NCBI RefSeq assembly: GCF_009709675.1
Contig: NZ_WMLB01000017.1
Span: 1 to 64,000 of the forward strand
Source of the DNA: Agromyces bracchium
GTDB lineage: Bacteria > Actinomycetota > Actinomycetes > Actinomycetales > Microbacteriaceae
Direction of reading: 5' to 3'
DNA length: 64,000 nt
Shown here: piece by piece, positions 8,753 to 55,266 of the stretch
Numbering within the stretch: position 1 is the stretch's first letter
Layout of the letters: every line of letters starts with the position of its first letter
Translations under genes and position numbers: made by a program
The notes under the pieces: model-generated
The model's database searches: none
What the model was told of the DNA's origin: nothing
Seen by the model: only the letters and a program-made list of their open reading frames with translations

Positions 8753-11107
8753 TCAGGCCAGCGGCGCGTTCGCCACGGCGATGAGCTGCTCGATCTGCTC
8801 GAGGTCGAAGGCCGACCCGGGGAACATCGCGGCACGGCCGATGGGCATCGCGCCCATCATCTGCATCATGCCCTCGGCGTCGAGGCCGAGCCCGCCGGCG
8901 GTCTCGGCCGGGGCGTCGCCCGCAGCCTCACCCGCCGGCTCGCCCCCGCCGAGCAGGTCGGCCGCCATGGCCGCGAGCGCCTGCCCGACGATCGGACCGG
9001 CGACGGGGTGGGCCATGACCTCGCTGATCGTCGACTCGATCGTGAGCGGGATCCGCACCGGGTCGGCCTCGACGTCGACGGTCGCGACCGAGCGGATGTC
9101 GCGGCTCGACGCCCCGACCTCGACCGTGTACTCGCCGCCCTCGACGATCCAGAGGTCGACCCGCGTGTCCCAGTAGGCGAGGTCGGTGCGGCGGACGCGG
9201 ACCTCGACGTCGCGACGCTCGCCCGCCGCCAGCGTCACCTTGGCGAAGCCCTTGAGCTCGCGCGGAGCGCGCGCCACCGTCGAGCCCGGCAGCGACGTGT
9301 AGACCTGCACGACCTCGGCGCCGTCGCGGCCGCCCGTGTTCGTCACGGGCACGCGCACGAGGAGGCCGTCGTCGTCGGAGCTCACGACGGCGTCGCCGTA
9401 CTCGAAGGTCGTGTACGAGAGGCCGTGGCCGAACGGGTAGGTCACCTCGAGCTCGCGCGCGTCGTACCAGCGGTACCCGACGAGGAGGCCCTCGCCGTAG
9501 CGCACGTGCCCGTGCTCGCCGGGGAAGTTGCCCCACGCGGGGGTGTCCTGCAGGCGCACCGGCACGGTCTCGGTGAGGCGGCCCGACGGGTTCACCGCGC
9601 CGTAGAGCACGTCGGCGACGGCCGAGCCGCCGGCCTGGCCGAGGAGCCACGTCTCGAGGATCGCGGGGACCCGGTCGGCGAACGGCGCGAGGCGCACGAC
9701 GCCGCCGTGCGAGAGCACGACGACCGTGTTCGGGTTCGCGGCGAGCACGCGGTCGACGAGCTCGAGCTGCGCGGCGGGCAGCTCGATGTCGCGCCGGTCG
9801 AAGCCCTCGGACTCGAGGCTCGCGGGCAGGCCGAGGAAGAGCACGGCCACGTCGGCGGAGGAGGCTGCGGCCACGGCCTCGTCGGCGAGCCCCGCGGCAT
9901 CCGAGCCGTCGATGGTGAAGCCGGGCGCGAAGGTCACGGCATCCGCGCCGGCGACCTCGCGGATCGACTCGAGCGCGGCGTCGACGCGCGTGGCGTTCAC
10001 GTGCGAGCTGCCGCCGCCCTGGAAGCGCGGCGTGCGCGCGAACTCGCCGATGACGGCGACGGATGCCTCGGGCGCGAGCGGCAGCAGCGAGCCCTCGTTG
10101 CGCAGCAGCACGATGCTGTTCGCCGCGGCTTCGCGCGCGAGCGCGTGGTGCGCGTCGACGTCGTACGTGGCGTCGGCGTCGGCGCCGGCCACGGCCTTCT
10201 GCACGAGCTCCACGGCGCGGCGGGCGCCGGCGTCGAGCACCGACTCGTCGAGCTCGCCCGACTCGACCGCCGCGACGACCTGCGCGTCGGACCGGCCGTC
10301 GTTGGCGGGCATCTCGAGGTCGAGGCCGGCGGCGAGCGCGGCGACCCGGTCGGTGACGGCGCCCCAGTCGGAGACGACGAGCCCGTCGAAGCCCCACTCG
10401 TCGCGGAGCACCTCGGTGAGGAGGAACCGGTTCTGCGAGGCGGGCACGCCGTTCACGCGGTTGTACGAGCACATGACGGTCCACGGCTGCTCGTCCTCGA
10501 CGACGCGCTGGAAGCCGCGGAGGTAGATCTCGCGGAGCGGGCGCGGGTCGATGTCGGCCGACACGCGCATGCGGTCGTCCTCCTGGTTGTTCGCCGCGTA
10601 GTGCTTGAGCGACGCGCCGACGCCCTGCGACTGCACGCCGCGCACGAGCGCGGAGCCGAGCACGCCCGAGACGAGCGGGTCCTCGGAGAGGTACTCGAAG
10701 TTGCGGCCGCACAGCGGCGAACGCTTGATGTTGATGCCCGGGCCGAGGAGCACGCCGACGCCTTCGGCGCGCGACTCCTCGCCGAGGGCGACGCCGACGC
10801 GCTCGAGCAACTCGGGGTCGAACGACGAGCCGAGGGCGACCGCGGGCGGGAAGCAGGTGGCGGGGACGGAGGCGGCCATGCCGAGGTGGTCGGCGCTGTC
10901 GTCCTGCTTGCGCACGCCGTGCGGGCCGTCGGTGAGCATGATCGACGGCACGGGGCCGACCTGCTTGGTGGTCCAGAAACTCTCGCCGCTCGTGAGGCCG
11001 GCCTTCTGCTCGGTGGTGAGCGCGGCGACGACCTCCGCCGCGGGCGTCGCGACGAACGCCGCGGAGTCGACGGCCGCTGCTCGGCCGTTCTGGAGGGTGT
11101 CGGTCAT
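8753..11107 (-). CDS. glycoside hydrolase family 3 beta-glucosidase-type enzyme
   Basis: 784 residues. The GH3 (alpha/beta)8 domain spans about residues 30-320 with the substrate-binding KHY at 168-170 and the nucleophile Asp247 in VVSDWGAV. The (alpha/beta)6 sandwich domain follows (SIVLLRNEGSLLPL, VLFLGLP), then a fibronectin type III-like domain ending in YTVEVGASSRDI near residue 670. About 100 extra C-terminal residues contain an Ala/Gly-rich patch and MMQMMGAMPIGR. There is no signal peptide, so it hydrolyses imported beta-glucosides or related glycosides in the cytoplasm. The start at 11107 has GAAAGG upstream; a longer frame to 11257 would cross the promoter. It is divergent from the padR-sulfatase-MFS operon. 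Confidence 0.93.
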   Translation of the reverse strand: MTDTLQNGRAAAVDSAAFVATPAAEVVAALTTEQKAGLTSGESFWTTKQVGPVPSIMLTDGPHGVRKQDDSADHLGMAASVPATCFPPAVALGSSFDPELLERVGVALGEESRAEGVGVLLGPGINIKRSPLCGRNFEYLSEDPLVSGVLGSALVRGVQSQGVGASLKHYAANNQEDDRMRVSADIDPRPLREIYLRGFQRVVEDEQPWTVMCSYNRVNGVPASQNRFLLTEVLRDEWGFDGLVVSDWGAVTDRVAALAAGLDLEMPANDGRSDAQVVAAVESGELDESVLDAGARRAVELVQKAVAGADADATYDVDAHHALAREAAANSIVLLRNEGSLLPLAPEASVAVIGEFARTPRFQGGGSSHVNATRVDAALESIREVAGADAVTFAPGFTIDGSDAAGLADEAVAAASSADVAVLFLGLPASLESEGFDRRDIELPAAQLELVDRVLAANPNTVVVLSHGGVVRLAPFADRVPAILETWLLGQAGGSAVADVLYGAVNPSGRLTETVPVRLQDTPAWGNFPGEHGHVRYGEGLLVGYRWYDARELEVTYPFGHGLSYTTFEYGDAVVSSDDDGLLVRVPVTNTGGRDGAEVVQVYTSLPGSTVARAPRELKGFAKVTLAAGERRDVEVRVRRTDLAYWDTRVDLWIVEGGEYTVEVGASSRDIRSVATVDVEADPVRIPLTIESTISEVMAHPVAGPIVGQALAAMAADLLGGGEPAGEAAGDAPAETAGGLGLDAEGMMQMMGAMPIGRAAMFPGSAFDLEQIEQLIAVANAPLA

Positions 11108-11259: not shown

Positions 11260-11898
11260 ATGAAGTTCGAGAACGTCCTGCTGGGCCTGCTGGCCCTGAA
11301 GCCGCTGCACGGCTACGAGCTGATGAAGTGGCTCGACACCGAGGGGCAGTTCCTGCGGTCGAACACGCACCACAGCCAGATCTACCGCGAGCTCGGCCGC
11401 ATGGTCGCGAACGGCCTCGTCGAGTTCCACGTCGACTCGCGTGAGGGCCGACCCGACGCGAAGGTCTACCGGATCACCGAGGTCGGGCGCGAAGCGCTCA
11501 TGGAATGGGTGCACTCGCCGTACAAGCCGACGAGCCGCTTCCAGGACGCCGACTTCAACGCACGATTCGTCTTCACCGCGCAGCTCGACCCCGCGGCCGC
11601 GGTCGTGGTCATCGACACCGAACTCGAGTACCGGCGCGCACAGGTCCTCCGCAGCCGGACCCGCTCCCTCACCATGTCCGACCTCGACCCGATCCCCGAG
11701 ATCGACGTCGACCGGGTCGAGCGCATCGGGCTCGCCATGCACGAGTTCGGCAAGGAGTCGGTCGATCGCTGGATCGAGTGGCTCGAGGAGATGCGCGCCT
11801 CGCTCGTCGCCGAGATCGCGAGTTCCGCCGACGCCGAGGCGTCCGGCCCCGAGACATCCGCCGCCACCGCCACCACCGCCGAGGAGGCCCGCGCATGA
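11260..11898 (+). CDS. PadR family transcriptional regulator
   Basis: 212 residues. The N-terminal winged helix of PadR proteins is clear: MKFENVLLGLLALKPLHGYELMK, then the YRELGRMVANGLVEF recognition and wing region with VYRITEVGREAL. The C-terminal half is the Vir-like helical dimerisation domain (PF10400 type), and the last 25 residues are an Ala/Thr-rich tail. PadR repressors release DNA when they bind aromatic or other small ligands. GGGAGC precedes the ATG by 5 nt. An ATGTG-N8-CACAT operator lies just upstream, and the gene overlaps the sulfatase by 4 nt (ATGA), so it very likely controls the sulfatase, the MFS transporter and perhaps the divergent GH3 enzyme. Confidence 0.92.
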   Translation: MKFENVLLGLLALKPLHGYELMKWLDTEGQFLRSNTHHSQIYRELGRMVANGLVEFHVDSREGRPDAKVYRITEVGREALMEWVHSPYKPTSRFQDADFNARFVFTAQLDPAAAVVVIDTELEYRRAQVLRSRTRSLTMSDLDPIPEIDVDRVERIGLAMHEFGKESVDRWIEWLEEMRASLVAEIASSADAEASGPETSAATATTAEEARA

Positions 11899-13706
11899 GG
11901 GCCATCATGGTCATGTTCGACAGCCTGAACCGGCGGATGCTGCCGCCGTACGGCAGCGACTGGGTGCACGCGCCGAACTTCGAGCGCCTCGCGGCTCGCA
12001 GCGTGACGTTCGACCACTGCTACGGCGGGTCGATGCCCTGCATGCCGGCGCGTCGCGAGATGCACACGGCCCGCTACAACTTCCTGCACCGGTCGTGGGG
12101 CCCGCTCGAGCCGTTCGACGACTCGGTGCCCGCGATGCTCACGGCCGCCGGCATCCACACGCACCTCGCAACCGACCACCAGCACTACTGGGAGGACGGC
12201 GGCGCGACCTATCACTCCAGGTACTCCACCTACGAGTTCTTCCGCGGCCAGGAGGGCGACCCGTGGAAGGGCCAGGTCGCCGACCCCGAGATCCCCGAGT
12301 CGCTCGGCATGTCGAAGGAACTGAAGACGAAGCTCTGGCGCCAGGACTGGGTCAACCGCGGCCACCTGCAGGAGGAGAAGGACCACCCGCAGACCCGCAC
12401 GTTCGACGCCGGCATCGAGTTCCTCGAGACCAACGCCGACCAGGACGGCTGGTTCGTCCAGATCGAGACCTTCGACCCGCACGAGCCGTTCTTCAGCTAC
12501 GCCGACTACAAGCGCCACTACGAGACCGGCTACGACGGCCCGCACTTCGACTGGCCCGACTACGCCAAGGTGACCGAGGTGCCCGAGGCCGTCGAGCACG
12601 CCCGCGCGGAGTACGCCGCGCTGCTGACGATGTGCGACCGGTCGCTCGGCCGTCTGCTCGACGTCATGGACCAGCACGACCTGTGGGCCGACACGATGCT
12701 CATCGTCAACACCGACCACGGCTTCATGCTCGGCGAGCACGGCTGGTGGGGCAAGAACGTGCAGCCCTGGTACGACGAGACCATCCACAACCCGCTGTTC
12801 GTCTGGGACCCGCGGTCCGGCGTCGCGGGCGAGCGCCGCGCCTCGCTCGTGCAGACGATCGACTTCGGCCCGACGCTGCTCGACTTCTTCGGCGTCGCGC
12901 CCACCGACGACATGCAGGGCTCCTCCCTCGCGCCGGTCGTCGTCGACGACCAGCCGATCCGCGAGTACGGGCTGTTCGGCGTCTTCGGCGGCCACGCGTG
13001 CGTGACCGACGGCCGGTACGTCTACATGCGCGCCTCGGCGACGCCCATGAACCAGCCGCTCCACGAGCACACGCTGATGCCGACCCACATGAACGGCTTC
13101 TTCCACGCGGGTGAACTCGCGCACGCCGAGCTCGTCGACGGGTTCGGCTTCACGAAGGGGCTGAAGGTGCTGAAGACCCCGGCGCAGGCGTTCGTCTCGC
13201 CGTATGCGTTCGGCACGCAGCTGTTCGACCTCGAGGCCGATCCCGAGCAGCTGCACCCGCTGCGTGACGACGCGCTCGAGCTCGAGCTCGCGACCGCGCT
13301 CCGCGACCTGTTGGTCGCCTCCGACGCACCCGCGGAGCAGTTCGTGCGCCTCGGCCTGCCCGAGACCGGGCCGCTCGGCGACGAGCACCTGCTGGTCGGC
13401 GCGCAGTGGCAGATGCTCCAGCTCTCGCTCCTGCCCGCCGCGTCGGCCGCCGACTTCGGCGAGGCCGGCGCGGCGCTCGAGCGACCGATCGCCGAGTTGC
13501 TGGCGGATGACGCGAGCCGCGCCGTCCTCGCCCGGCATGCCCCGATGCTCGCGGGCGGTCCCATCGTCGCGATCGCCGGCCGGCTCACGCTGCTGCAGGT
13601 CGCGTCGATGATGGTCGGCCTCCTGCCCCGCCCGCTCCTCGCCGCCCTGGCGACGGAGCTGACTGAGGCGGATGCCGCGGCATCCGTCGCCCTCGACCGG
13701 ACCTGA
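11895..13706 (+). CDS. sulfatase, Cys-type (formylglycine-dependent), cytoplasmic
   Basis: 603 residues. The sulfatase signature CxPxR is present as Cys49-Met-Pro51-Ala-Arg53, where Cys49 should be converted to formylglycine. Metal ligands are suggested by MVMFDS near the N-terminus and by NTDHGFMLGEHG in the middle. The first 410 residues cover the alkaline-phosphatase-like fold; the last about 150 residues are a less conserved helical extension. The enzyme removes sulfate esters. No signal peptide is visible, so the sulfated substrate must enter the cell first, consistent with the MFS transporter downstream. The ATG overlaps the padR stop by 4 nt. No formylglycine-generating enzyme is encoded in this window. 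Confidence 0.92.
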   Translation: MRAIMVMFDSLNRRMLPPYGSDWVHAPNFERLAARSVTFDHCYGGSMPCMPARREMHTARYNFLHRSWGPLEPFDDSVPAMLTAAGIHTHLATDHQHYWEDGGATYHSRYSTYEFFRGQEGDPWKGQVADPEIPESLGMSKELKTKLWRQDWVNRGHLQEEKDHPQTRTFDAGIEFLETNADQDGWFVQIETFDPHEPFFSYADYKRHYETGYDGPHFDWPDYAKVTEVPEAVEHARAEYAALLTMCDRSLGRLLDVMDQHDLWADTMLIVNTDHGFMLGEHGWWGKNVQPWYDETIHNPLFVWDPRSGVAGERRASLVQTIDFGPTLLDFFGVAPTDDMQGSSLAPVVVDDQPIREYGLFGVFGGHACVTDGRYVYMRASATPMNQPLHEHTLMPTHMNGFFHAGELAHAELVDGFGFTKGLKVLKTPAQAFVSPYAFGTQLFDLEADPEQLHPLRDDALELELATALRDLLVASDAPAEQFVRLGLPETGPLGDEHLLVGAQWQMLQLSLLPAASAADFGEAGAALERPIAELLADDASRAVLARHAPMLAGGPIVAIAGRLTLLQVASMMVGLLPRPLLAALATELTEADAAASVALDRT

Positions 13707-15365: not shown

Positions 15366-15547
15366 CTCCCTGCTCTGTCGAGAGAGGGTCACCCGCGGTG
15401 GCGGTCAGGGTGGTGAACGGGGAGGACTGCCCGGGGCGAACGCGGGTGCGGAGCGGGTCAACGCCCGTGGACGGTCCGGCGGCGGATTCGGGTTGCAGTT
15501 CCGCGGCATCCTGTGTCGGGGCTTCGCGGCGGCAGCGCGCTCGTTCG
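15366..15547. other. intergenic stretch without a recognisable gene
   Basis: This is the remainder of the 324-bp gap between the convergent MFS and membrane-protein genes. After the terminator I see only GC-rich sequence and a short GTCAC...GTGAC inverted repeat near 15548. No open frame with normal composition and no RNA gene is apparent. Confidence 0.5.
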
Positions 15548-17020
15548 TCACCAGCTCGTGACGAGCAGGTGCTGCACGACGAGCGCGAAGCCGAGCTGGC
15601 CGGCGAAGCCGGCGCGGCGCCAGCGCTCGGTGAGGAGCGCGGTGCCGACGAGCAGCCACGGGACGAACGGCAGCCAGATGCGCTCGACCTCGGCCTTGCT
15701 CATCTGCGAGAGGTCGGCGGCGACGATCGTGGCGGCTGCGGCGAGTGCGAGCACGATCACGATGCGCTCCGGGCGCGCCTCGGCGCGCCAGTCGACGGCG
15801 CGTGCGCCGGCGGTCGCGACCGCTGCGCCGACGAGGGGGCCGGCGCTGATCGCGAGGGCGGCGAGGTTGCCCCACACCCAGTAGGTGAACTGGCGGCGGC
15901 TCGCGACGCCGTCCCAGTAGCGCTCGACGAGTACGGGGAACGCCTCCCACCAGGCGAAGCCGAACGCCGCGAAGGCGAGCACGACGGCGAGCGCTGCGAC
16001 CGCCGCGATGGGCAGCGGTCGCCAGTCGCGGCCGAGCGCGAGCACGGCGAGGGCCAGGATCCCGAGGATCGGCAGGCCGTACGACATCATCACGCAGGTC
16101 CCGAGGAGCAGCCCGGCGAGCACGCTCCACGCCACCATGGCGCCCGTGCCGCGAACGCCCGCCGGGCCGGCACCGCTCCCCTCCGCGCGGCGACGGGCCG
16201 TCGCCGCGAACCCGAGCGCGCACAGTCCCCACGCGGCGACCGCGGCGAACATGCCGTCGGCCGACACCGCGAACCAGATCGCCGCGGGACCCATCGCCAG
16301 GAACGGCGCCGCCCGGCGCGCGCCATCCTCCGCCCCGAACCGGCGGAGCAGGGCGAGCACCGCGAGCGCCGCGGTCGCGCCGACGAGGAGCACCACGAAC
16401 CCGGCCGCGAGCCCGCCGCCGAGCCCGAGGCGGACGAGCACCACGAAGAACAGCAGCGCTCCCGGCGGGTGGCCGGCGATGTGCACCGGCCAGTTGTCCT
16501 CCGAGTCGAGCGGGATGTGCGCGATGTAGTCGCGGAGGGTCGCGCCGAAGTCGGTGACCTCGCGCGCGGTGCCGAGGTACTCGTACTTGTGCTCCAGAAC
16601 CTGCCCGATCCCGTCCCAGCCGTCGACGGTCGCGAGTGCGACCATCCAGGCCACGGCGGCCGCGTAGACCACGCCGAGCAGCGCACCCCAGCGGAGCCGG
16701 CGCGCGAGCGGAACACCCCAGACGGATGCGGCGACCGCGAGCAGCACGGCGGGCAGCGTGCCCGGCCCGAGCCGCGGCATCCACTCGGCGTGCAGCGGCG
16801 GGAACGACCTGATGTGCACGCTCTGGCCGAGCAGCGGCGGGACGATCATCGCGAGCGCGATGAGCGCGAGCGCCACCCCGAGGCCGACCCACGGCGCGAC
16901 GGCCACCAGGGTGCGACGACGCGACGCGGGCGGAGCCGGCGATGCAACCCGGTCGGTCGGGGCAGCGGATGCCGCGGGCGCACCGTCGGCGCCGCCGGGA
17001 CCCTCGGGTTCGACCTGCAC
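15548..17020 (-). CDS. polytopic membrane protein resembling GT-C glycosyltransferases
   Basis: 490 residues with roughly 11-12 hydrophobic segments after a Pro/Ala-rich N-terminal tail of 35 residues. The long first extracytoplasmic region (about residues 65-170) holds acidic and aromatic residues (LHAEWMPRLGPG, LDSEDNWPVHIAGHPPG), and the HPPGALLFF motif recalls actinobacterial GT39/GT-C-like mannosyltransferases that use polyprenyl-phosphate sugars. I infer a glycosyl transfer to a lipid or cell-wall acceptor, but no DD or equivalent catalytic pair can be assigned with certainty. It is divergent from the molybdopterin oxidoreductase (150 bp apart), and near a GT2 and an epimerase, which fits a surface-glycan role. 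Confidence 0.72.
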   Translation of the reverse strand: MQVEPEGPGGADGAPAASAAPTDRVASPAPPASRRRTLVAVAPWVGLGVALALIALAMIVPPLLGQSVHIRSFPPLHAEWMPRLGPGTLPAVLLAVAASVWGVPLARRLRWGALLGVVYAAAVAWMVALATVDGWDGIGQVLEHKYEYLGTAREVTDFGATLRDYIAHIPLDSEDNWPVHIAGHPPGALLFFVVLVRLGLGGGLAAGFVVLLVGATAALAVLALLRRFGAEDGARRAAPFLAMGPAAIWFAVSADGMFAAVAAWGLCALGFAATARRRAEGSGAGPAGVRGTGAMVAWSVLAGLLLGTCVMMSYGLPILGILALAVLALGRDWRPLPIAAVAALAVVLAFAAFGFAWWEAFPVLVERYWDGVASRRQFTYWVWGNLAALAISAGPLVGAAVATAGARAVDWRAEARPERIVIVLALAAAATIVAADLSQMSKAEVERIWLPFVPWLLVGTALLTERWRRAGFAGQLGFALVVQHLLVTSW

Positions 17021-17169
17021 CCTCCGAGACTACGGACGAGGTGCACGGCCGGGCAGGGGTGGACTTCTTACGGAAGTCGGAACCCCGGCGGACGAGCCAG
17101 CGCACGCGCGTCCGCGAACCGTAAGCTCCGCGCGTCGCATCCGGCGCGCCGCGGTGGTCGACTGGGGGC

Positions 17170-18360
17170 ATGGCCGGCTTCACCGAACGCGCCTCGGCCC
17201 GGATCGCCGAGCGACTCGAGCCGCTCATGGGTGCCGCGCACGACGCGGCATCCGACCCGCCGGTGAAGGCCGCACGCACGACGGTCGTGATCGGCCGCCT
17301 GCTCGGCGCCGCGTTCCTCATCTGCTTCGCCACGGGCGTCTACAGCCACCTGCTGCAGAGCCCGCTGCCGTGGCTGCCGATGCCGACGAGGCCGGTGGAG
17401 CTCTACCGCGTGACGCAGGGCCTGCACGTCATCACGGGCACGGCCGCCGTGCCCCTGCTGCTCGCGAAGCTCTGGACGGTCTACCCGCGCCTGTTCGCGT
17501 GGCCGCCCGTGCGGTCGGTGCCGCACTTCCTGGAGCGCGCGTCGATCGCCGTGCTCGTGGGCGTCTCGCTCGTCGAGGTGACGATCGGCCTGATGAACCT
17601 CGTGCAGTGGTACGCATTCCCGTTCCCGTTCCGCGCCACCCACTTCGCGCTCGCGTGGGTGCTCATCGGGGCGCTCGCGATCCACCTCGGCGTGAAGCTG
17701 CCGGTCATCGCGAAGGTCTGGCGGCGACCCGAGGGCGACCGGGCGGATGCCGCGGGGCGGTTCGTCTCGCGTCGCGGATTCCTCGCCGCGGTCGGCGCGG
17801 CCGTGGCATCCGCCGTCGCCCTCACGGCCGGCCAGACCGTGCCCGCGCTCGCCCCGCTCAACGTGCTCGCACCGCGCCGGATGGGCGTCGGCCCGCAGGG
17901 ACTGCCGATCAACCGCACGGCCGCGCAGGCGGGCGTCACGGAGACGGCGGTCGCGCCGGACTGGGTGCTCACCGTCGCGACGCCGTCGGGCTCGCGCGAC
18001 TTCACGCTCGACGACCTGCGTGCCCTGCCGCAGGCCGAGGAGGTGCTGCCGATCGCCTGCGTCGAGGGGTGGAGCCAGTCGGCGACGTGGCGCGGCGTCC
18101 GGCTCGTCGACCTGCTCGCGGCAGCGGACGCCGCGGAGCCGACGGCGCCGCTCCGGATCGAGAGCCTGCAGGAGCGCGGCGCGTTCGCGCGCACCGAGAT
18201 GCCGCCGCAGTACGCGCGCGACCCGCTCACGCTCGTCGCCCTCGAGCTGAACGGCGGGACGCTCGACCTCGACCACGGATTCCCGGCCCGTGTGATCGCG
18301 CCGGGGCGCCCGGGCGTCATGCAGACGAAGTGGCTGCGGCGGATCGAGGTGACGGCATGA
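17170..18360 (+). CDS. membrane-anchored molybdopterin oxidoreductase with fused heme-b-like domain (sulfite oxidase/YedY superfamily)
   Basis: 396 residues. Residues about 38-185 form four transmembrane helices with His60, His86, His158 and His172 placed like heme ligands of cytochrome b561/YedZ proteins. Next comes a twin-arginine motif (SRRGFLAAVG, Arg201-Arg202) plus a hydrophobic stretch, then the Moco domain (about 255-396) with the molybdenum-ligating Cys297 in LPIACVEGWSQ. The organisation suggests a fusion of the YedZ-type heme subunit and the YedY-type catalytic subunit, the Moco domain facing outside. It probably exchanges electrons between quinones and an extracytoplasmic substrate. 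It is followed by an overlapping small membrane gene (ATGA). Confidence 0.85.
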   Translation: MAGFTERASARIAERLEPLMGAAHDAASDPPVKAARTTVVIGRLLGAAFLICFATGVYSHLLQSPLPWLPMPTRPVELYRVTQGLHVITGTAAVPLLLAKLWTVYPRLFAWPPVRSVPHFLERASIAVLVGVSLVEVTIGLMNLVQWYAFPFPFRATHFALAWVLIGALAIHLGVKLPVIAKVWRRPEGDRADAAGRFVSRRGFLAAVGAAVASAVALTAGQTVPALAPLNVLAPRRMGVGPQGLPINRTAAQAGVTETAVAPDWVLTVATPSGSRDFTLDDLRALPQAEEVLPIACVEGWSQSATWRGVRLVDLLAAADAAEPTAPLRIESLQERGAFARTEMPPQYARDPLTLVALELNGGTLDLDHGFPARVIAPGRPGVMQTKWLRRIEVTA

Positions 18361-18800
18361 GGGCGGCGCGCACCGCGCTCGTCGGGGTCGGGCTCGGGCT
18401 CGCTGCCTTCGGCGGGTTCCTGGTGCTGACCGAGATCGCGCCCTCGCGCTGGCTCGGCATCGCGGTGTGGGTCGGCGCGGCGATCCTGCTGCACGACGGC
18501 GTGGTGGCGCCCGTCGTCGTCGCGATCGGGCTCGGCGCCGCGCGCGTGCGCGGCCGGGTCGGCGATCGCGGCGTCACGATCGCGCAGGGCGCGCTCGTCG
18601 TCGGCGCGATCCTCACGGCGATCACGGTGCCCGCGCTCGTCGCCTCGACGCTCGGCAATCCGAACCCGACGATCCTCGTCGGCTCCTACGGCATCGCGCT
18701 CGCGGTCATCTGGGCCGTGCTGCTGGTCGTCGCCGCGATCGCGCTGCGCGTCTCGCGCACGAGGCTCCTCCGCGCCGAGCGCGCCGCGCGCACGAAGTGA
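18357..18800 (+). CDS. small membrane protein overlapping the oxidoreductase gene
   Basis: 147 residues with four hydrophobic segments (about residues 5-27, 33-62, 70-95 and 105-130) and a basic C-terminal tail (RTRLLRAERAARTK). Its ATG overlaps the stop of the molybdopterin enzyme by 4 nt, so the two are translated together and may form a complex. I do not recognise a named family. The last 115 bp overlap the 3' end of the methyltransferase gene on the opposite strand, an unusually long convergent overlap. Confidence 0.78.
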   Translation: MRAARTALVGVGLGLAAFGGFLVLTEIAPSRWLGIAVWVGAAILLHDGVVAPVVVAIGLGAARVRGRVGDRGVTIAQGALVVGAILTAITVPALVASTLGNPNPTILVGSYGIALAVIWAVLLVVAAIALRVSRTRLLRAERAARTK

Positions 18801-19543
18801 CGCCCCGCGGCGTCCCAGTGCTCGGCGACCGCGAGGCCCGCCTCGGTCGCGAGCTCGGCCACCGCCGCCCAGCCGAGACGCGCCCAGGGGAACGGCTCGC
18901 TCTCGCGCCCGTCGTCGTCGACCAGCGTGCAGTGGCCGACGACCGCGAGGTCGGCGTCGGCGTCGACCTCGACGAGCACCTGGCCGCCGCCGGTCACGAG
19001 CTCCGCGCACCGCTGGAGCAGTGCGGCCGGGTCGCCGCCGATGCCGATGTTGCCGTCCATCAGCAGCACGCTCTGCCAGCGCCCCTCGAGCGGAAGCCGG
19101 TCGAAGACCGACCGCTGCAGCGCGAGGCCGCCCGCGCGCCGCGCGCGCTCGACGGCGTGCGGCGCGACGTCGATGCCGAGCGCGGGCAGCGATCGGGCGT
19201 CGGCGGCGTGCAGCATCCGACCGGGCCCGCAGCCGATGTCGAGCATCGGCCCCGTGGCGCGGTCGAGCACCGTGAGGTCGGCGTCGCCGGCCGGACGCAC
19301 CCAGCTGCCCGCGTCGAGCCGGTGCGAGGTGCCGTCGGCGCCGCGGAGCGAGAGCGTCGCGACATCCTGGCCAGCGAGCAGTCGCACGTACGGCTCGCCG
19401 CGACCGGCCCCGAAGGCGACCGGTTCGGGCGGTGCGGCCCGACGCGGCGCGTCGCCCTCGCCTCCTGCGCTCGCCCGTGCGCGGCCGGCCGGGGCGCTCG
19501 GCCCGGTGGCGGCCGGCGGCGGCCGGAGCGGCGGGGCGCTCAT
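18686..19543 (-). CDS. class I SAM-dependent methyltransferase
   Basis: 285 residues. The SAM-binding motif I is MLDIGCGPGRML near residue 100, followed by LGIDVAPHAVERAR (acidic end of strand 2), LLMDGNIGIGGDP (motif IV region) and GGQVLVEVD. The N-terminal 50 residues are Pro/Ala-rich. It is last in the five-gene minus-strand operon; its ATG overlaps the stop of the DUF2064 gene by 4 nt. The acceptor is unknown; by context it could be a sugar or lipid-linked glycan. The C-terminal about 38 residues are encoded over the convergent membrane gene and look atypical (SAIAATTSSTAQMTASAMP), so the functional end may be earlier. Confidence 0.85.
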   Translation of the reverse strand: MSAPPLRPPPAATGPSAPAGRARASAGGEGDAPRRAAPPEPVAFGAGRGEPYVRLLAGQDVATLSLRGADGTSHRLDAGSWVRPAGDADLTVLDRATGPMLDIGCGPGRMLHAADARSLPALGIDVAPHAVERARRAGGLALQRSVFDRLPLEGRWQSVLLMDGNIGIGGDPAALLQRCAELVTGGGQVLVEVDADADLAVVGHCTLVDDDGRESEPFPWARLGWAAVAELATEAGLAVAEHWDAAGRHFVRAARSARRSLVRETRSAIAATTSSTAQMTASAMP

Positions 19544-20226
19544 CGCCGACCTCGCGTGAGCTCGCGGTGCAGCCGGGCGAACCGCGTGCCGGGCGCCGCG
19601 AGGGCGACGGATGCCGCGGACTCGGCCGTGTCGACGTCGGTGAGCTCGTCGAGCAGGCCCACGACGAGCCCGGCCGCCTCGAGCCGTTCGAGCTGCCGTC
19701 GCCCGGTGTCGTCGCGCGACATGGAGACCCCGCGGACCACGGCCCCGTCGGGCTCGCGCATCGCGAGCGCCCAGAAGCCGCCGTCGGCGGCCGGGCCGAG
19801 CCACGCGTCAGGCGTCGGACCGCCGCCGGTGCGGCCGCTGATCGATGCCACTCCGGTCTTCGAGCCGATCGCCACGCGATCGCCCATGGCGAGCGCCGAC
19901 GCCACGAGGCTCGGCGTGAGCTGGGGCGTGTCCATCCCCACGAGGAGCATCGGCTCGTCGACCACGTCGAACAGGTGCGCGAGCCGGGCATCGAGCTCGC
20001 CCGCCGACTGGGCGAGCACGTCGAAGCCGGCCGCCGCCGCGGGCACCACGTCGCCGTCGAAGTAAAGCACGCGCCGCTCGACGGGCAGCGCGCCGACGAC
20101 GTCGAGCGTGTCGACGAGCGCCGCCGCGGCGAGCGCGGCGGCCTCTTCGGGCGTGAACGGCGGGACGAGCCGGGTCTTCACGCGACCGGGCCGGCACTCC
20201 TTCGCGATGACGGCCACGGCGGTCAT
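19540..20226 (-). CDS. DUF2064 (TIGR04282-like) GT-A-fold glycosyltransferase-like protein
   Basis: 228 residues. Family landmarks are VIAKECRPGRVKTRLVPP at the N-terminus (nucleotide-sugar-binding loop), LLVGMDTPQL in the middle (the G-x-D-x-P motif of DUF2064) and the GPAADGGFWALAM segment (the DGG(Y/F)W motif). This family is found with GT2 proteins, including the arsenosugar cluster, and has a nucleotidyltransferase/glycosyltransferase fold with unproven activity. It is translationally coupled to GT2 upstream and the methyltransferase downstream by 4-nt overlaps, so the three act in one pathway. The gene starts at the ATG at 20226. Confidence 0.87.
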   Translation of the reverse strand: MTAVAVIAKECRPGRVKTRLVPPFTPEEAAALAAAALVDTLDVVGALPVERRVLYFDGDVVPAAAAGFDVLAQSAGELDARLAHLFDVVDEPMLLVGMDTPQLTPSLVASALAMGDRVAIGSKTGVASISGRTGGGPTPDAWLGPAADGGFWALAMREPDGAVVRGVSMSRDDTGRRQLERLEAAGLVVGLLDELTDVDTAESAASVALAAPGTRFARLHRELTRGRR

Positions 20227-20906
20227 GCGTGCACCTCGCGGAAGATGCGCGACATGTCGCCGATCGCGGTGAGCGTGCCGCGCACGGTCCCGGTCACCTT
20301 CGACCGCCCCTCGCGTGGCCGGTAGGGCACGTCGAGTTCGCGGATGCGCCATCCGCCCGCGGCGGCCCGCAGCACCATCTCGAGCGGGAAGCCGCTGCGC
20401 CGGTCGCGGATGCCGAGCGCCTGGAGGCGCGCGGTCTCGGCGACGCGCATCGGCCCGAGGTCGTGCAGGCGCGTGCCCGTGCGTCGCGTCATTCGCGCGG
20501 CGAGGACCCGGTTCGCGAGCCGCGCGTGCGGCGGCCAGGCCGAGCCGCTCGTCGGGCGGCGGCGACCGAGCACGAGGTCGGCTTCGCCGCGTTCGACGAG
20601 CGCGACGAGCGCCGGGAGGTCGGCGGGATCGAGCGACGCGTCGGCGTCGCAGAAGGCGACGAGCGGCGCGGTCGCGGCCTCGAGGCCCGCGTTGGCCGCC
20701 GCGCCGAATCCGCGACGGGGCTCGGTGACGACGGTCGCGCCGTGCTCGCGCGCGACCTCGGCCGAGCGATCGGTCGAGGCGTTGTCGACGACGATCGCGC
20801 GCACGCCGTCGGGCAGCCGCCCGAGCACCCACGGCAGCGCCCGCTCCTCGTCGAGGCATGGCAGCACGAGGTCGACGCGCGGCCCGCCGTCGGTTCCAGG
20901 GGTCAT
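20223..20906 (-). CDS. family 2 glycosyltransferase
   Basis: 227 residues, a minimal GT2 catalytic domain without transmembrane segments. Recognisable parts are DLVLPCLDEERALPWVL, VDNASTDRSAEVA (nucleotide binding) and FCDADASLDPADLP carrying the DAD metal motif near residue 88. The C-terminal GMRI-like section (RSGFPLEMVLRAAAGGWRIRELDVPYRPREGRSK) is typical of dolichol-phosphate-sugar synthase relatives, so a polyprenyl phosphate acceptor is possible. Its start overlaps the epimerase stop and its stop overlaps the DUF2064 start, each by 4 nt. Confidence 0.9.
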   Translation of the reverse strand: MTPGTDGGPRVDLVLPCLDEERALPWVLGRLPDGVRAIVVDNASTDRSAEVAREHGATVVTEPRRGFGAAANAGLEAATAPLVAFCDADASLDPADLPALVALVERGEADLVLGRRRPTSGSAWPPHARLANRVLAARMTRRTGTRLHDLGPMRVAETARLQALGIRDRRSGFPLEMVLRAAAGGWRIRELDVPYRPREGRSKVTGTVRGTLTAIGDMSRIFREVHA

Positions 20907-22012
20907 CGCGCGACTCCCTCCGACGCGAGGCGGCCCTGCTCGGGCCCGCCTCCATCTGCCGCCGACGAGTCGGCTTCGGCCGACGCGAACTCGGCGAGCC
21001 CGTCGGCGAGCGCGACGCGCGGCGCCCAATCGAGCTCCGCCCTGGCGCGAGCGGATGACGCGGTGATGTGCCGCACGTCGCCGAGCCGGTACTCGCCCGT
21101 CACGATCGGCTCGGGCCCGCCCATCGCGCGTGCGAGGCCCGCGGCGAGTTCGCCGACGGTGGTGACGACGCCCGAGCCGACGTTGAACGCCCGTGCCGTT
21201 CCTCCCGGCAGCTCGTCGAGCGCGTCGGCGGCGGCGAGGTTGGCGCCCGCGACATCCGTCACGTGCACGAAGTCGCGGCGCTGCGCGCCGTCCTCGAAGA
21301 CGCGGGGCGCCCCGCCACGCGCGAGCGACGAGCGGAAGATCGCCGCGACACCGGCATAGGGAGTGTCGCGCGGCATCCGCGGCCCGTAGACGTTGTGGTA
21401 CCTGAGGAGCGCCGCTCGACCGCCGGTCGAGCGCGCCCACGCCGAGGCCAGGTGCTCCTGCGCGAGCTTCGTCAGGGCGTAGACGTTGCGCGGGTCGAGC
21501 ACGTCGTCCTCGTCGACGAGGTCGGGCTCGAGCGGATGCCCCGTCTCGGGGTCGCGCGGCTCGAAGCGCCCGGCGTCCAGGTCGGCGACGGTGCGCGCGG
21601 CGGGCCGGCGCCGGCGCCCCTCGGCGTCGCGATACGCCCCCTCGCCGTAGACGACCATCGACGACGCGAGCACGAGCCGGCCGACGCGCGCCCGCGCCAA
21701 CGCCGCGGCCAGCTCGGCCGTGCCGAGCACGTTCGACGCGACGTAGTCGGGCGCGTCCTGCAGGTCGACGCCGAGGCCCACCTTCGCCGCCTCGTGGAAC
21801 ACCGCGTCGACGCCGGCGAGCGCCCGGTCGAGCACCGCCGGGTCGCGCACGTCGCCGTGCACGAACTCCACGCCGTCGGGCGGGGCGACGGATGCCGCGT
21901 GCACGTCGGCGCGCAGCGAATCGAGCACCCGCACCGCGTCGCCCCGTTCGAGGGCGAGGCGCACGACCTCGCCGCCGATGAACCCGGCACCGCCGGTGAC
22001 GAGGAGCGTCAT
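20903..22012 (-). CDS. NAD-dependent epimerase/dehydratase (extended SDR)
   Basis: 369 residues. The NAD motif TGGAGFIG lies at residues 6-13, the catalytic Ser is in ASSMVVYGEG (around residue 118) and the YxxxK pair is Tyr178/Lys182 (NVYALTKLAQ). FVHVTDVAGANL and the LGDVRHITAS segment are typical of UDP-glucose 4-epimerase or dTDP-glucose dehydratase relatives. It should act on a nucleotide sugar, but which one is not readable. The insertion of about 45 residues around 130-170 (acidic, Arg-rich) is unusual. It overlaps the MTA phosphorylase upstream and the GT2 downstream by 4 nt each. Confidence 0.9.
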   Translation of the reverse strand: MTLLVTGGAGFIGGEVVRLALERGDAVRVLDSLRADVHAASVAPPDGVEFVHGDVRDPAVLDRALAGVDAVFHEAAKVGLGVDLQDAPDYVASNVLGTAELAAALARARVGRLVLASSMVVYGEGAYRDAEGRRRRPAARTVADLDAGRFEPRDPETGHPLEPDLVDEDDVLDPRNVYALTKLAQEHLASAWARSTGGRAALLRYHNVYGPRMPRDTPYAGVAAIFRSSLARGGAPRVFEDGAQRRDFVHVTDVAGANLAAADALDELPGGTARAFNVGSGVVTTVGELAAGLARAMGGPEPIVTGEYRLGDVRHITASSARARAELDWAPRVALADGLAEFASAEADSSAADGGGPEQGRLASEGVAR

Positions 22013-22800
22013 CTCACCACCGGGAGTCCGAGCACGTGCGCGATCGCCTCGCCGTCGATGAGTTCGCGAGGCGAGTAGTCCGCCGGGATCGCGGCGACGA
22101 TCCGCTCGAGCGATGCGAGCACGCGAGGGCGAGCCTCGGCGAGGCGGCGGAACACGAGCTCGGCGGTCACCGCATCGGGGTCGTCCTCGACGTGCCCGGT
22201 GTCGGTGTCGGTCACGAGGCAGAGCGTCACGGTGCCCATTCCCAGTTCGGCGGCGAGCGCCACCTCGGGGCAGAGCGTCATGTTCACGAGGTCTGCACCG
22301 CTGTCGCGGAGCAGGGATGCCTCGGCCCGCGTGGAGAACCTCGGACCCTGGATCACCGCGACGGTCGCACGCGGCGCGGCATCCGGCAGCGCCTCGACCG
22401 CGATGCGCCGCAGATCGGGGCAGAACGGCTCGGCGAACGGCAGGTGCCGCACGAGCGAGGCGTCGTAGAACGTGTCCCCCCGACCCCACGTGCGATCGAG
22501 GAGCTGGTCGGGGATCGCCCACGACTGCGTCGGGAACTCGGCCCGGAGCGACCCGACGGCCGCCGTCGACACGACCGCGCGCACCCCGAGGTCGGCGAGC
22601 GCCCACGCGTTCGCACGCGCGTTGATGCGGTGCGGCGGGATGGTGTGCCCGTCGCCGTGGCGGGCGAGGAACGCCACCGGCCGGCCGGCGAGCTCACCCG
22701 ACGTGACGAGCGCCGTGCCGAACGGCGTCGCGTGCTCGCTCGTCTCGCCGTCGACCAGCGCGGCGAGCCCCGTGCCGCCGATCACCCCCACCGCGTCCAT
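22009..22800 (-). CDS. mtnP: S-methyl-5'-thioadenosine phosphorylase (MTAP/PNP family)
   Basis: 263 residues. GVIGGTG near the start binds phosphate; RHGDGHTIPPHRIN is the family motif after strand 2; NMTLCPEVALAAELGM carries the Met that contacts the ribose and the Glu; TDTDTGH supplies the Asp that acts on the purine N7. The enzyme cleaves methylthioadenosine (or another 5'-modified adenosine/inosine) with phosphate to adenine and a ribose-1-phosphate derivative. Being first of five genes joined by 4-nt overlaps with sugar enzymes and a methyltransferase is odd for a salvage enzyme, and suggests that its product feeds the pathway or that a 5'-deoxynucleoside is its true substrate. Confidence 0.9.
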   Translation of the reverse strand: MDAVGVIGGTGLAALVDGETSEHATPFGTALVTSGELAGRPVAFLARHGDGHTIPPHRINARANAWALADLGVRAVVSTAAVGSLRAEFPTQSWAIPDQLLDRTWGRGDTFYDASLVRHLPFAEPFCPDLRRIAVEALPDAAPRATVAVIQGPRFSTRAEASLLRDSGADLVNMTLCPEVALAAELGMGTVTLCLVTDTDTGHVEDDPDAVTAELVFRRLAEARPRVLASLERIVAAIPADYSPRELIDGEAIAHVLGLPVVR

Positions 22801-22895
22801 GGCTCAACCCTGCCCGTCCCCCGCTCCGCCGGTTCGAGGAGGTTCCTTACGATCCGGTGACGCGGAGGCGTCCCGTCGTCGCGCGCATCGTCACG

Positions 22896-23372
22896 TCAGT
22901 CCCCGCGGTTCATCCGCCGCACGCGCTCCTTGGCGGTCTTCCGGGCGCGCTCCTGGTCGGTCGGCGTCGTGATCGCGGAGAACAGCGTGCGGAAGCCGCT
23001 CACGATCGCCATGTTCGAGGGCCGCTTCACCTGCTTGCGCTGGCGCTCGATCGACTTCGCCGCGCCGCCCGTGCGGGACGCATCGGCGGAGGACGCCCGC
23101 CCGCCTGCCGTGCCGTAGCGGACGGACACCCGCTCGAGGCGCGCCGACGAGCGCCTGGCCGCGCGACGCGCGGCGTAGGGCACGCGGTCGGCCTCGCGCT
23201 TGACGATGACGATGCGTCGCCGCTCGGCGGATGCCACGGACTTCACCCTCGACTTCGCCGGTTCGGGCAGCGACGAGGCGAGCTTGCGCGCCTGCTTCCC
23301 GGCGCGCTCCGCCTCCTTCACGGCGCGCTTCGCATCCCGGCGGGCATCGCGGTCGGCAGTGGTCTTCGGCAT
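22896..23372 (-). CDS. hypothetical basic, low-complexity protein
   Basis: 158 residues, strongly basic, rich in Lys, Arg and Ala: the first 45 residues (TADRDARRDAKRAVKEAERAGKQARK) are predicted helix or coiled coil, and the C-terminus (RARKTAKERVRRMNRGD) is also basic. It has no signal peptide or membrane segment. Nucleic acid or ribosome binding is conceivable by charge alone, nothing more. The ATG at 23372 has GAGGGGGACGC upstream (GAGGGGG as ribosome binding site). It is divergent from the TetR gene at 23498 and 95 bp from the MTA phosphorylase start. Confidence 0.7.
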   Translation of the reverse strand: MPKTTADRDARRDAKRAVKEAERAGKQARKLASSLPEPAKSRVKSVASAERRRIVIVKREADRVPYAARRAARRSSARLERVSVRYGTAGGRASSADASRTGGAAKSIERQRKQVKRPSNMAIVSGFRTLFSAITTPTDQERARKTAKERVRRMNRGD

Positions 23373-52508: not shown

Positions 52509-55214
52509 CTATCCGTCGAACGGGTGGTAGTCGACTTCGCCCTGCGCAATGCGACGGTTGAGCTCGGTCAGGTGGGCGACGATACGGGCGGCGTCCTGCG
52601 CGTCCCCCTTCGGCCAACCGTAGGCCTCGGCGACCGCCTCATCGAGCCGCTTGTGCAGTGCGGCGAGCTCCGCGAACCCACCCTCATCCATTAGGTTGTA
52701 GAGCTTCGTGAGACCCATGCCGTACTCGACGCAGAGCTCGCTCCGACGAGAATACAGATCGACGGATGACTCAGCGATCGCTCTGCGCTGGGCAGTAGTC
52801 GGGTCGGGCCAAGGAAAGGTCTCGAAAACCGAAGACGGCGTGTAGCGGAGGCGAGTCTCTAGTGTTGACGATCGCGCCCGCGCCCACGCTTCGTGGGCCG
52901 CTGACATCAGCACACCCATGCTGTAGTCATCGTCGAATGAGAACACAATCACAAGATCGCTGGGGCACGTCCAAGCGTCCTGCCAAGCCAACAGCATCCG
53001 CTTGCCGACCCGACCAACCGACGCATATCTAGGCATGCCCTCGAGCGCCGCCCGCATTCCGACACGAGCTTCACCGAACTGCCACCACTTCGTCCGATAG
53101 GCGTCTCGTCGCGCGAAGTCGCGGAACGGCTTGACACGGTCGCGAACAATCGACAGCACCTGAGGGAACTTCGATGCAGTTTCGAGCCCGCGCTGAGCGA
53201 AATCGATTACCCACCGTGAAGGATCTTGTTCAGGGCGCGCCGCGATGTCGTCGCCTACGAGGTACGGCCGCACGACGTCTCGATTCCCTGGATCGGCTGC
53301 CACAAGCCCGAGAGCTTCATCCTCGTCGAGGATGAAGCCTGCACCTACTACCACCGGACCCTGGAATGCACGGTCGCGATTTTGCGGCAGCGCCAACGGT
53401 GCCCACTCGTCGCCCGTGCCGATGGTCAGTGACGACGTAATTCCGTCGACTTTCTCGCCATCGAGCTCGAACTCGCTCGGTGCGACTGCGGGGTTCTTGA
53501 CCCAGTTCACGATGCTGACGTGCACCTTGGCTTCGCCGGGCCATTTTTGGGTTGAGACCGCGTCGGTGATGACCCCGCCATTCCGCACGATGTAGTCGAG
53601 CGACGCCTCGCGCCCACGGTTCTGCATGATCGAATTCGTCCCGACGAGGCCGGCCCGTTGACCTGGCTTGAGGTTCTCGTTTGCCTTGCGGAACCAGTAC
53701 ACGCAAAGGTCCTTCACGCCGACACCGAAAGCCTTCGACAACCATTTGAGATAACCGTCGCCGAGCGCCTTACGGAGGAGCTGGGATCCAAGGAACGGCG
53801 GATTCCCGATGATCGCGTCGACTTCAGGCCAGTCGGCGCGCAAGGCGTCGGCGACCCGGATGCCCGAGAGGTCCACGAGCGGAAGGACTGGTTCCGCCTC
53901 ACCGAACCGCTCGATCATCTGGCGGTGGCCCATCCAGAGCGTGACGCGCGCGATGAGAACGGCGATACGTTCGATGTCGATCCCGCGGATGTTCGAGAGC
54001 GGGTAGTAGGGCAGCGGACCCTTCTGGACTGGTACCCCGGTCTCTTGAGCGAGGCGCGTCATGCGCTGCTTGATCTCGAACTCGAGTGACCGCAGCTCGC
54101 GATAGGCGACATAGAGGAAGTTGCCGCAGCCGCAAGCGGGATCGAGCACCGTGAAGGCGCACAGTTCGTCGAGCAGCTCTCGCGCTTGCGACACGGTCGA
54201 CGCCGATTCGATGCGGTCGCGCCATGGGCGAACGATCGTCGGTGTGACGATCTTCATGATGTCTGCCTCGTGCGTGTAATGCGCACCAAGCTCGGCGCGA
54301 CGGTCCTCGCCCAGCACTCCCTCGAGCAGTGAGCCGAAGATCGTCGGGTTGACCTCACGCCAGTTGAACTCAGCTGCCGCGCGCAGGTGCTCGAGTTCGT
54401 CGCGCGTCAGGTACACCGCGGCCGGCTTCGCGAAGAGCTCACCGTTCACATACCTGGTGCCGGAGTACCGTCCCTTCCGGTTGTGGTCCCCCTTCTGGTT
54501 GAGCAGCGTGAAGAGATGTCCGATATCGCGAGAGGAATCCGGGTCCTTCTCGGCGAGGAGGGTATCGACCGTCGCCTGCAACGGGAACCCATCGAGCATG
54601 CCGAGGTCTTCCGCGAAGAGGCACCACACGAGCTGCATCGTGAACCGCTGGATCTCGTCGATCGGAGCGGCGGACCGGTCCGCCATCGACGTATAGAGAA
54701 CGGCGACGTGTTCGGCAGCGTCAGCCGTCAGTTCTCGACGATGCTCCGAGAAGACTGGCTCGATGGTGTCGGACTGGAGGAACAGCAGCGCGTCGTAGTG
54801 GTCCGGCAGCTCCTCGAGGCTGAACCGCAGCCGCGGTTCGTTCGGGAACCGGCCTGGCTCCCAGATCTCGAACTCGCGGAAATTGCAGGCGATCACCCAT
54901 CGAGCGGCAGGGATGCCGGCCTTCGAATCGCTCGATTCCTGCCAATACTTGACACGCTGATCCTTCGCCTTTTCAAGCGCGACGGTCGGCGCCTTCATCT
55001 CCACGATGAGCACGCCCGGCCAGTGAAGATCCATGAAGCCTGCGGATGACTTGAAGTCCTCGAAGAGCGCGCCCACCTCGCCGCGATCCGACCCGTAGGC
55101 AGCAAAGAGCTCATTGAGGAACGTCTGAGCTTCGGCCCTCTCGCTGCCCGCGTAGACGGACCATTTCTTCACGAACTTCTCCAGCGCGAGCTGGATCTCG
55201 AGGCCGCTCTTCAC
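52509..55214 (-). CDS. MmeI-type single-chain restriction-modification enzyme (Type IIL)
   Basis: 901 residues. The N-terminal nuclease shows D-X9-E-X-K as FMDLHWPGVLIVEMK (Asp62, Glu72, Lys74), as in MmeI. A helical spacer leads to the adenine methyltransferase with motif I LDPACGCGNFL and motif IV IIGNPPFLG, then a target-recognition region (about 560-800) and helical C-terminus. Such enzymes cut at a fixed distance and methylate one strand for protection. The GTG at 55214 has AGGGAG 8 nt upstream; the GTG at 55223 is too close to it. Base composition is visibly lower in GC (about 60% in a sampled 60-bp line) than its flanks, a sign of transfer. No separate specificity or endonuclease gene is needed. 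Confidence 0.92.
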   Translation of the reverse strand: MKSGLEIQLALEKFVKKWSVYAGSERAEAQTFLNELFAAYGSDRGEVGALFEDFKSSAGFMDLHWPGVLIVEMKAPTVALEKAKDQRVKYWQESSDSKAGIPAARWVIACNFREFEIWEPGRFPNEPRLRFSLEELPDHYDALLFLQSDTIEPVFSEHRRELTADAAEHVAVLYTSMADRSAAPIDEIQRFTMQLVWCLFAEDLGMLDGFPLQATVDTLLAEKDPDSSRDIGHLFTLLNQKGDHNRKGRYSGTRYVNGELFAKPAAVYLTRDELEHLRAAAEFNWREVNPTIFGSLLEGVLGEDRRAELGAHYTHEADIMKIVTPTIVRPWRDRIESASTVSQARELLDELCAFTVLDPACGCGNFLYVAYRELRSLEFEIKQRMTRLAQETGVPVQKGPLPYYPLSNIRGIDIERIAVLIARVTLWMGHRQMIERFGEAEPVLPLVDLSGIRVADALRADWPEVDAIIGNPPFLGSQLLRKALGDGYLKWLSKAFGVGVKDLCVYWFRKANENLKPGQRAGLVGTNSIMQNRGREASLDYIVRNGGVITDAVSTQKWPGEAKVHVSIVNWVKNPAVAPSEFELDGEKVDGITSSLTIGTGDEWAPLALPQNRDRAFQGPVVVGAGFILDEDEALGLVAADPGNRDVVRPYLVGDDIAARPEQDPSRWVIDFAQRGLETASKFPQVLSIVRDRVKPFRDFARRDAYRTKWWQFGEARVGMRAALEGMPRYASVGRVGKRMLLAWQDAWTCPSDLVIVFSFDDDYSMGVLMSAAHEAWARARSSTLETRLRYTPSSVFETFPWPDPTTAQRRAIAESSVDLYSRRSELCVEYGMGLTKLYNLMDEGGFAELAALHKRLDEAVAEAYGWPKGDAQDAARIVAHLTELNRRIAQGEVDYHPFDG

Positions 55215-55266
55215 GCAGCGCACTCCCTACCGCGCGGCGATGGCCGCGACATCCGTCGACGTTGAA

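Follow-up and report, generated by a model that had tools for sequence, protein, structure and literature searches.

What is made by an operon that joins a methylthioadenosine (MTA)-type phosphorylase to genes for sugar transfer and methylation? The question is raised by a locus of Agromyces bracchium, a member of the Actinomycetes, found in a stretch of 64,000 nucleotides that is called the window here (contig NZ_WMLB01000017.1 of assembly GCF_009709675.1, positions 1 to 64,000). The operon encodes the phosphorylase, an epimerase, a GT2 glycosyltransferase, a DUF2064 protein and a methyltransferase, and stands beside genes for a GT-C-like membrane protein and an oxidoreductase. A first-pass annotation took it for a candidate undescribed pathway. 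By sequence, the core gene set instead matches the methylthioxylose (MTX) cluster of mycobacteria, and is not undescribed. The additions to the known core are the methyltransferase, an MsrP-like molybdenum-cofactor (Moco) oxidoreductase and a two-component system, the last in roughly half of the regions compared. By analogy, the locus probably makes a 5-deoxy-5-methylthio-pentofuranose and attaches it to a cell-surface glycan by the mycobacterial MTX route.

A gene set held in common with mycobacteria

Named genomes were scanned with an alignment of GT-C proteins. At least 597 stretches with at least 565 relatives were found, and the best 80 loci were kept. The first query row was Mycobacterium-like, so the set leans mycobacterial: 78 loci are from Mycobacterium or Mycolicibacterium and two are of Rhodococcus type. 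Besides GT-C, which is present by construction, these best 80 loci carry GT2 (77), DUF2064 (77), the epimerase (65) and the phosphorylase (50), many loci being cut by contig or flank ends. Identity between the window GT2 and the GT2 of 77 of these loci is 46.7-57.9%. For GT-C, through which the loci were retrieved, it is 37-47% over all 80. The commonest gene order, seen in 27 of the best 80, is GT-C, DUF2064, GT2, epimerase, phosphorylase, which we take to be that of Rv0541c, Rv0540, Rv0539, Rv0536 and Rv0535 in M. tuberculosis. One study describes MtxT (Rv0541c) as transferring MTX to mannose caps and MtxS (Rv0539) as taking part in making the decaprenyl-phosphate donor (PMC8780516). The MTX route has been outlined, in a 2024 paper, as starting from MTA and passing through a decaprenyl-phosphate donor to a GT-C enzyme; MTX transfer outside lipoarabinomannan is called unclear there (PMC11127046).

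The same genes were followed through 197 genomes of the class, 89 of which gave DUF2064 matches at E<=0.001. Sixty regions were fetched, 54 around DUF2064 matches (hand-picked, mostly best-scoring, from 52 genomes) and six around phosphorylase matches; some are cut by contig ends. DUF2064 was found in 58 regions, GT2 in 57, the epimerase in 55, the methyltransferase in 53, the oxidoreductase in 42, GT-C in 31 and the phosphorylase in 22. In 55 of the 60, epimerase, GT2 and DUF2064 are all present, and the set stays joined while its order and strand vary. A chance neighbourhood was judged unlikely because of this joint occurrence in several gene orders, and in these regions the genes are not usually scattered, a doubt that the first-pass annotation had itself raised. 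Two regions picked for the phosphorylase (L057 and L058) lack all three genes, and L063 lacks GT2 and the epimerase. Among the 61 stretches that include the window, recurrent families are a histidine kinase (30), a response regulator (29; both named from Pfam matches of examples) and a GT87-type membrane protein (20). Neither the histidine kinase nor the response regulator family is present in the window stretch itself.

All eight genes of the locus are open, without internal stops, at the coordinates given in Table 1 (open reading frame check of the window). The five operon genes occupy 22800 down to 18686 of the - strand and are joined by four 4-nt ATGA overlaps (22009-22012, 20903-20906, 20223-20226 and 19540-19543), as the first-pass annotation had said. 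The overlaps suggest that the five products are made jointly. A fifth 4-nt overlap (18357-18360, + strand) joins the oxidoreductase gene to that of a small membrane protein. Three further genes had been described as converging on the operon. This holds for the oxidoreductase and small membrane protein genes, on the + strand; the GT-C gene shares the - strand with the operon and points away from the oxidoreductase gene. The convergent ends of the methyltransferase and small membrane protein genes overlap by 115 bp (18686-18800). No family was matched by the GT-C and small membrane proteins in profile-library searches, a search of 15400-23100 for sigma-70-like promoters found none, and the Rfam scan of the window gave no match.

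Table 1. Genes of the locus, with positions in the window (aa, amino acids; SDR, short-chain dehydrogenase/reductase; SAM, S-adenosylmethionine).
Product	Length (aa)	Position	Strand	Basis
MTA-type phosphorylase	263	22009..22800	-	PF01048
NAD-dependent SDR epimerase	369	20903..22012	-	PF01370, 161.8 bits
GT2 polyprenyl-phosphate sugar synthase, MtxS-like	227	20223..20906	-	PF00535 and cluster alignment
DUF2064 GT-A-like protein	228	19540..20226	-	PF09837
Class I SAM methyltransferase	285	18686..19543	-	PF13489, 28.9 bits; PF13649, 29.0 bits
Small membrane protein	147	18357..18800	+	Possible partner of the oxidoreductase by 4-nt overlap
Membrane domain (probable heme-b) fused to extracytoplasmic sulfite-oxidase-family Moco domain	396	17170..18360	+	PF00174
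GT-C-like membrane glycosyltransferase, MtxT-like	490	15548..17020	-	Identity to mycobacterial-type relatives

Elsewhere in the window, a sulfatase-family protein (PF00884) is encoded near the locus (11505-13706, +). A 904-aa MmeI-like type IIG restriction-modification protein (52509-55223, -) lies in a stretch of lower G+C content (about 62-64%, against 71-76% in most of the window) and was possibly acquired.

A candidate route from methylthioadenosine to a surface sugar

In the proposed route, the phosphorylase would convert MTA and inorganic phosphate to 5-methylthioribose-1-phosphate. The DUF2064 protein may be the nucleotidyltransferase that activates this 5-modified ribose-1-phosphate. 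At the nucleotide-activated stage, the epimerase would invert the methylthioribose at one carbon, from ribo to xylo by analogy. GT2 would load the sugar onto polyprenyl phosphate, and GT-C would move it from the lipid carrier to an acceptor outside the membrane. The Emb arabinosyltransferase (PF04602) is absent from the window genome and was found in 14 of the 197 class genomes, all of one family. The acceptor is expected to be other than lipoarabinomannan because the window organism has no Emb. We infer all substrates, the order of the steps, the acceptor, and the further modification or upkeep of the sugar by the methyltransferase and the oxidoreductase.

The phosphorylase scores 230.4 bits against TIGR01694, under the cut-off of 274.85, and the profile of cluster phosphorylases matches solved MTA phosphorylases (6e-88). 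The sole other PF01048 protein of the window genome resembles it weakly (E 1.2e-4). The epimerase is 51-82% identical to 13 cluster partners (alignment A6). Most of the epimerases in this alignment carry a metal-site-like Cys/His insertion (C-x2-H-G ... C-P-x-C-G), which is absent from the window protein, L053 and L059. GT2 is 50-85% identical to its 13 cluster partners (alignment A2), and the two other GT2s picked up in the window stretch and in L053 are 30-32% identical to it. Among solved structures, the GT2 profile comes closest to ArnC-type and dolichol-phosphate mannose synthases. The DUF2064 protein gave a weak match to CofC (33.2 bits). The profile of its family matches 3cgx (3e-28) and, weakly, 2-phospho-L-lactate guanylyltransferase (0.006), and the motifs K-T-R-L and M-D-T-P-Q are invariant in these proteins.

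The GT-C-like protein is 46% identical to the Mycobacterium-type protein of L108 (alignment A1). Its structure model has a mean predicted local distance difference test score (pLDDT) of 70.8. No PDB entry reaches E<=0.001, the best matches being AftA (3.3e-3), ArnT and oligosaccharyltransferases, and a profile sequence search of solved proteins found no relative of GT-C. It is thus from structure matches that a GT-C fold is weakly suggested. One genome (G233, C12) encodes a pair of GT-C homologues, with 93% and 63% identity to the window protein, which might serve two acceptors.

Co-occurrence was scored in 60 genomes of the genus, the window genome included, with strong matches only. The limits (GT-C E<1e-140, phosphorylase E<1e-70, oxidoreductase E<1e-65, methyltransferase E<1e-40) lie above wide E-value gaps. 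A limit of E<=0.001 would give 16, 43, 54 and 22 genomes in the same order; the rows dropped match other proteins weakly (the next E-value being 1e-7 for the phosphorylase, 5e-16 for the oxidoreductase and 1e-6 for the methyltransferase) or, for GT-C, are fragments in G012. The 16 of the 60 genomes with strong GT-C all have a strong phosphorylase, and only one of the 44 others (G218, in 840 contigs) has the phosphorylase. The full-length GT-C gene and the phosphorylase gene lie on different contigs in G001 and G012, the latter with GT-C fragments also on its phosphorylase contig. They are about 1 Mb apart in G006, G221 and G240, and at most 10 kb apart in the other 11. The methyltransferase (14 genomes) and the oxidoreductase (13) occur only within these 16. 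In the 197 class genomes, a strong match to methylthioadenosine phosphorylase (MTAP) and DUF2064 are both present in 74, DUF2064 alone in 15, MTAP alone in 28 and neither in 80 (Fisher p 4.6e-16, relatedness uncorrected).

This distribution bears on whether the phosphorylase belongs to the sugar pathway at all. It could be an ordinary MTA salvage enzyme that merely travels with an unrelated sugar operon, as might be read from the 28 of 102 class genomes with strong MTAP in which DUF2064 gave no match. Yet mtnA (TIGR00524) was found in none of the 17 phosphorylase-bearing genus genomes, the window genome included (it was found in two of four other genomes searched). The strong phosphorylase is missing from 43 of the 60 genus genomes and tracks GT-C even where the two are unlinked. 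Methionine salvage is unlikely on both counts, and this explanation as a whole is very improbable. A different nucleotide-sugar product, such as an O-methylated pentose on teichoic or teichuronic acid, with the MTAP-type enzyme acting on another purine nucleoside, would suit the methyltransferase found in 53 of 60 regions and the 15 DUF2064-bearing genomes that lack strong MTAP. It is quite improbable in view of the gene set held in common with the mycobacterial MTX genes.

The same machinery might be fed by 5'-deoxyadenosine from radical-SAM reactions, the product being a sulfur-free 5-deoxy-pentofuranose. Some MTAP-type enzymes use other 5'-deoxy nucleosides, and the phosphorylase here falls under the MTAP equivalog cut-off. 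Spermidine synthase is the usual source of MTA, and a search of the window genome for its family (PF01564) gave nothing at E<=1e-3. The homologous mycobacterial clusters, however, belong to an MTA-starting route (PMC11127046), and a sulfoxide-reductase-like enzyme in the cluster suits a sulfur sugar. A sulfur-free product is therefore considered unlikely. The MTX-type route favoured here is also weakened by that missing spermidine synthase, and by several other observations. Strong MTAP is lacking in 15 of the 89 DUF2064-bearing genomes, among them the near-complete clusters L071, L072, L099 and L104; all 15 have other PF01048 proteins. The phosphorylase gene is present in just 20 of the 57 regions with GT2 and DUF2064, being outside the fetched stretch in 37, and the GT-C gene in just 31 of the 60 regions. 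M. tuberculosis is not among the best 80 named loci, so that orthology to its experimentally studied genes is traced by way of named relatives and of the gene order taken for that species. The first-pass annotation had proposed a 5'-deoxyadenosine derivative as the sugar source, a surface glycolipid as its fate and an oxidoreductase acting on it outside the cell. MTA is itself such a derivative, and this outline appears right; the earlier interpretation overall is partly supported.

The methyltransferase and the oxidoreductase

The methyltransferase would methylate the sugar, as an accessory to the core. A D-G-N-x-G motif is conserved in its cluster partners, and its solved relatives are too mixed for a substrate to be named. 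Small genes like that of the 147-aa membrane protein were found in seven of the 60 fetched regions and 12 of the 80 named loci. In the oxidoreductase, H86, H158 and H172 are invariant in the membrane part, as is C297-V-E-G-W in the Moco part. No Pfam model matched the membrane part; its helices and invariant histidines point to heme b. The structure model has a mean pLDDT of 78.6, and its Moco domain matches sulfite-oxidase and MsrP folds (including 1xdq/1xdy). The sequence CVEGWS aligns with CVEAWS of MsrP 1xdq in a weak local match (E 0.22), and this position in chicken sulfite oxidase reads C-A-G-N-R-R. By overall score, sulfite oxidases ranked above MsrP, and the match to the curated MsrP model NF003767 (35.9 bits) is far under its 207-bit cut-off.

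This enzyme may be a menaquinol:methylsulfoxy-sugar reductase that re-reduces the oxidised sugar. Menaquinol is able to reduce a sulfoxide, whereas menaquinone is hardly able to oxidise a thioether, and menaquinone is presumably the quinone of the window organism. A reductase is favoured over an oxidase because of these potentials. A paper by Stalford et al. reportedly links a sulfoxide to MsrA. The substrate concerned would be oxidised MTX. An anti-oxidative role has been proposed for MTX (PMC10503756).

The two accessory genes are nested in their distribution. Both GT-C and DUF2064 are present in 77 named loci, of which 33 match neither accessory gene, nine the methyltransferase only and 35 both. 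The corresponding counts are 4, 11 and 41 in 57 fetched regions, with one oxidoreductase-only region, and 2, 1 and 13 in the 16 GT-C genomes of the genus. The oxidoreductase is thus found almost solely where the methyltransferase occurs, relatedness being uncorrected in all three sets. The lone oxidoreductase-only region (L105) has a run of N at the methyltransferase place, with a residual 41-residue match there. A strict rule was dropped because of L151, a Mycolicibacterium metagenome assembly counted among the 35, in which the oxidoreductase is intact but the methyltransferase match is confined to a C-terminal remnant (9483-9647). The nesting could arise if the two enzymes act in series on a single product, or if the last gene of an operon is the first to be lost.

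A broader picture can be offered tentatively, as a rather doubtful extension. In many Actinomycetes, a surface glycan would be covered with a methylated methylthio-pentose, which would take up oxidants by turning into its sulfoxide. A menaquinol-fed heme-b/Moco enzyme, often with its own two-component system, would re-reduce it, so that the sugar would act as a rechargeable shield. Part of Mycobacterium would have kept the sugar without the methyltransferase and reductase at the locus.

Significance and comparison with known systems

The MTX-type gene set occurs outside the context of lipoarabinomannan: an Emb match is absent from 80 of the 89 DUF2064-bearing class genomes, the cluster is carried by most of the 60 fetched regions, and in the window genome the set is complete although Emb is missing. 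The locus makes MTX transfer outside lipoarabinomannan a testable question. If the proposed route is true, the pathway could be studied in harmless bacteria outside the tuberculosis group, with bearing on a sugar that reportedly serves as a diagnostic epitope for tuberculosis. It would also give DUF2064 a concrete proposed reaction and provide an oxidoreductase that acts on a sugar rather than a protein.

Arsenosugar clusters (TIGR04282/TIGR04283) resemble the locus in pairing DUF2064 with GT2; the first-pass annotation had named phosphorylases among their genes as well. That pathway was judged unlikely, in agreement with the first-pass annotation, because both proteins score under the cut-offs: 97.9 bits against 134 for DUF2064 with TIGR04282, and 36.8 against 182 for GT2 with TIGR04283. 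No radical-SAM or arsenic family was matched among the eight window genes. A literature search on arsenosugars gave nothing useful among the titles listed, and a search for papers that combine an MTA phosphorylase, DUF2064, a glycosyltransferase and a methyltransferase returned none.

The GT136 three-component systems of pentofuranose transfer share a lipid-linked pentofuranose donor, an external GT-C enzyme and a sugar-setting epimerase (PMC11127046). They start at phosphoribosyl pyrophosphate with a phosphoribosyl-polyprenyl synthase, whereas the window locus has a phosphorylase and GT2. The envelope methionine sulfoxide reductase MsrPQ has a sulfite-oxidase-family Moco domain with a CVExWS motif and a membrane cytochrome (PMC7759655), features also seen or, for the cytochrome, suggested here. 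The msrPQ genes are under a two-component system, and a histidine kinase and response regulator accompany about half of the regions here. The window oxidoreductase differs in being one fused chain, far from the MsrP model, for which sulfoxide reduction is a proposal.

MTX capping of lipoarabinomannan in M. tuberculosis (MtxS/MtxT) is alike in its clustered MTA phosphorylase, epimerase, GT2, DUF2064 and GT-C. It would also be alike in its MTA start and polyprenyl-phosphate donor (PMC8780516, PMC11127046). The A. bracchium locus differs in standing in a genome without Emb, and it adds the methyltransferase, the MsrP-like oxidoreductase and the small membrane protein to a core that, in 33 of the 77 named loci carrying both GT-C and DUF2064, lacks both of the first two.

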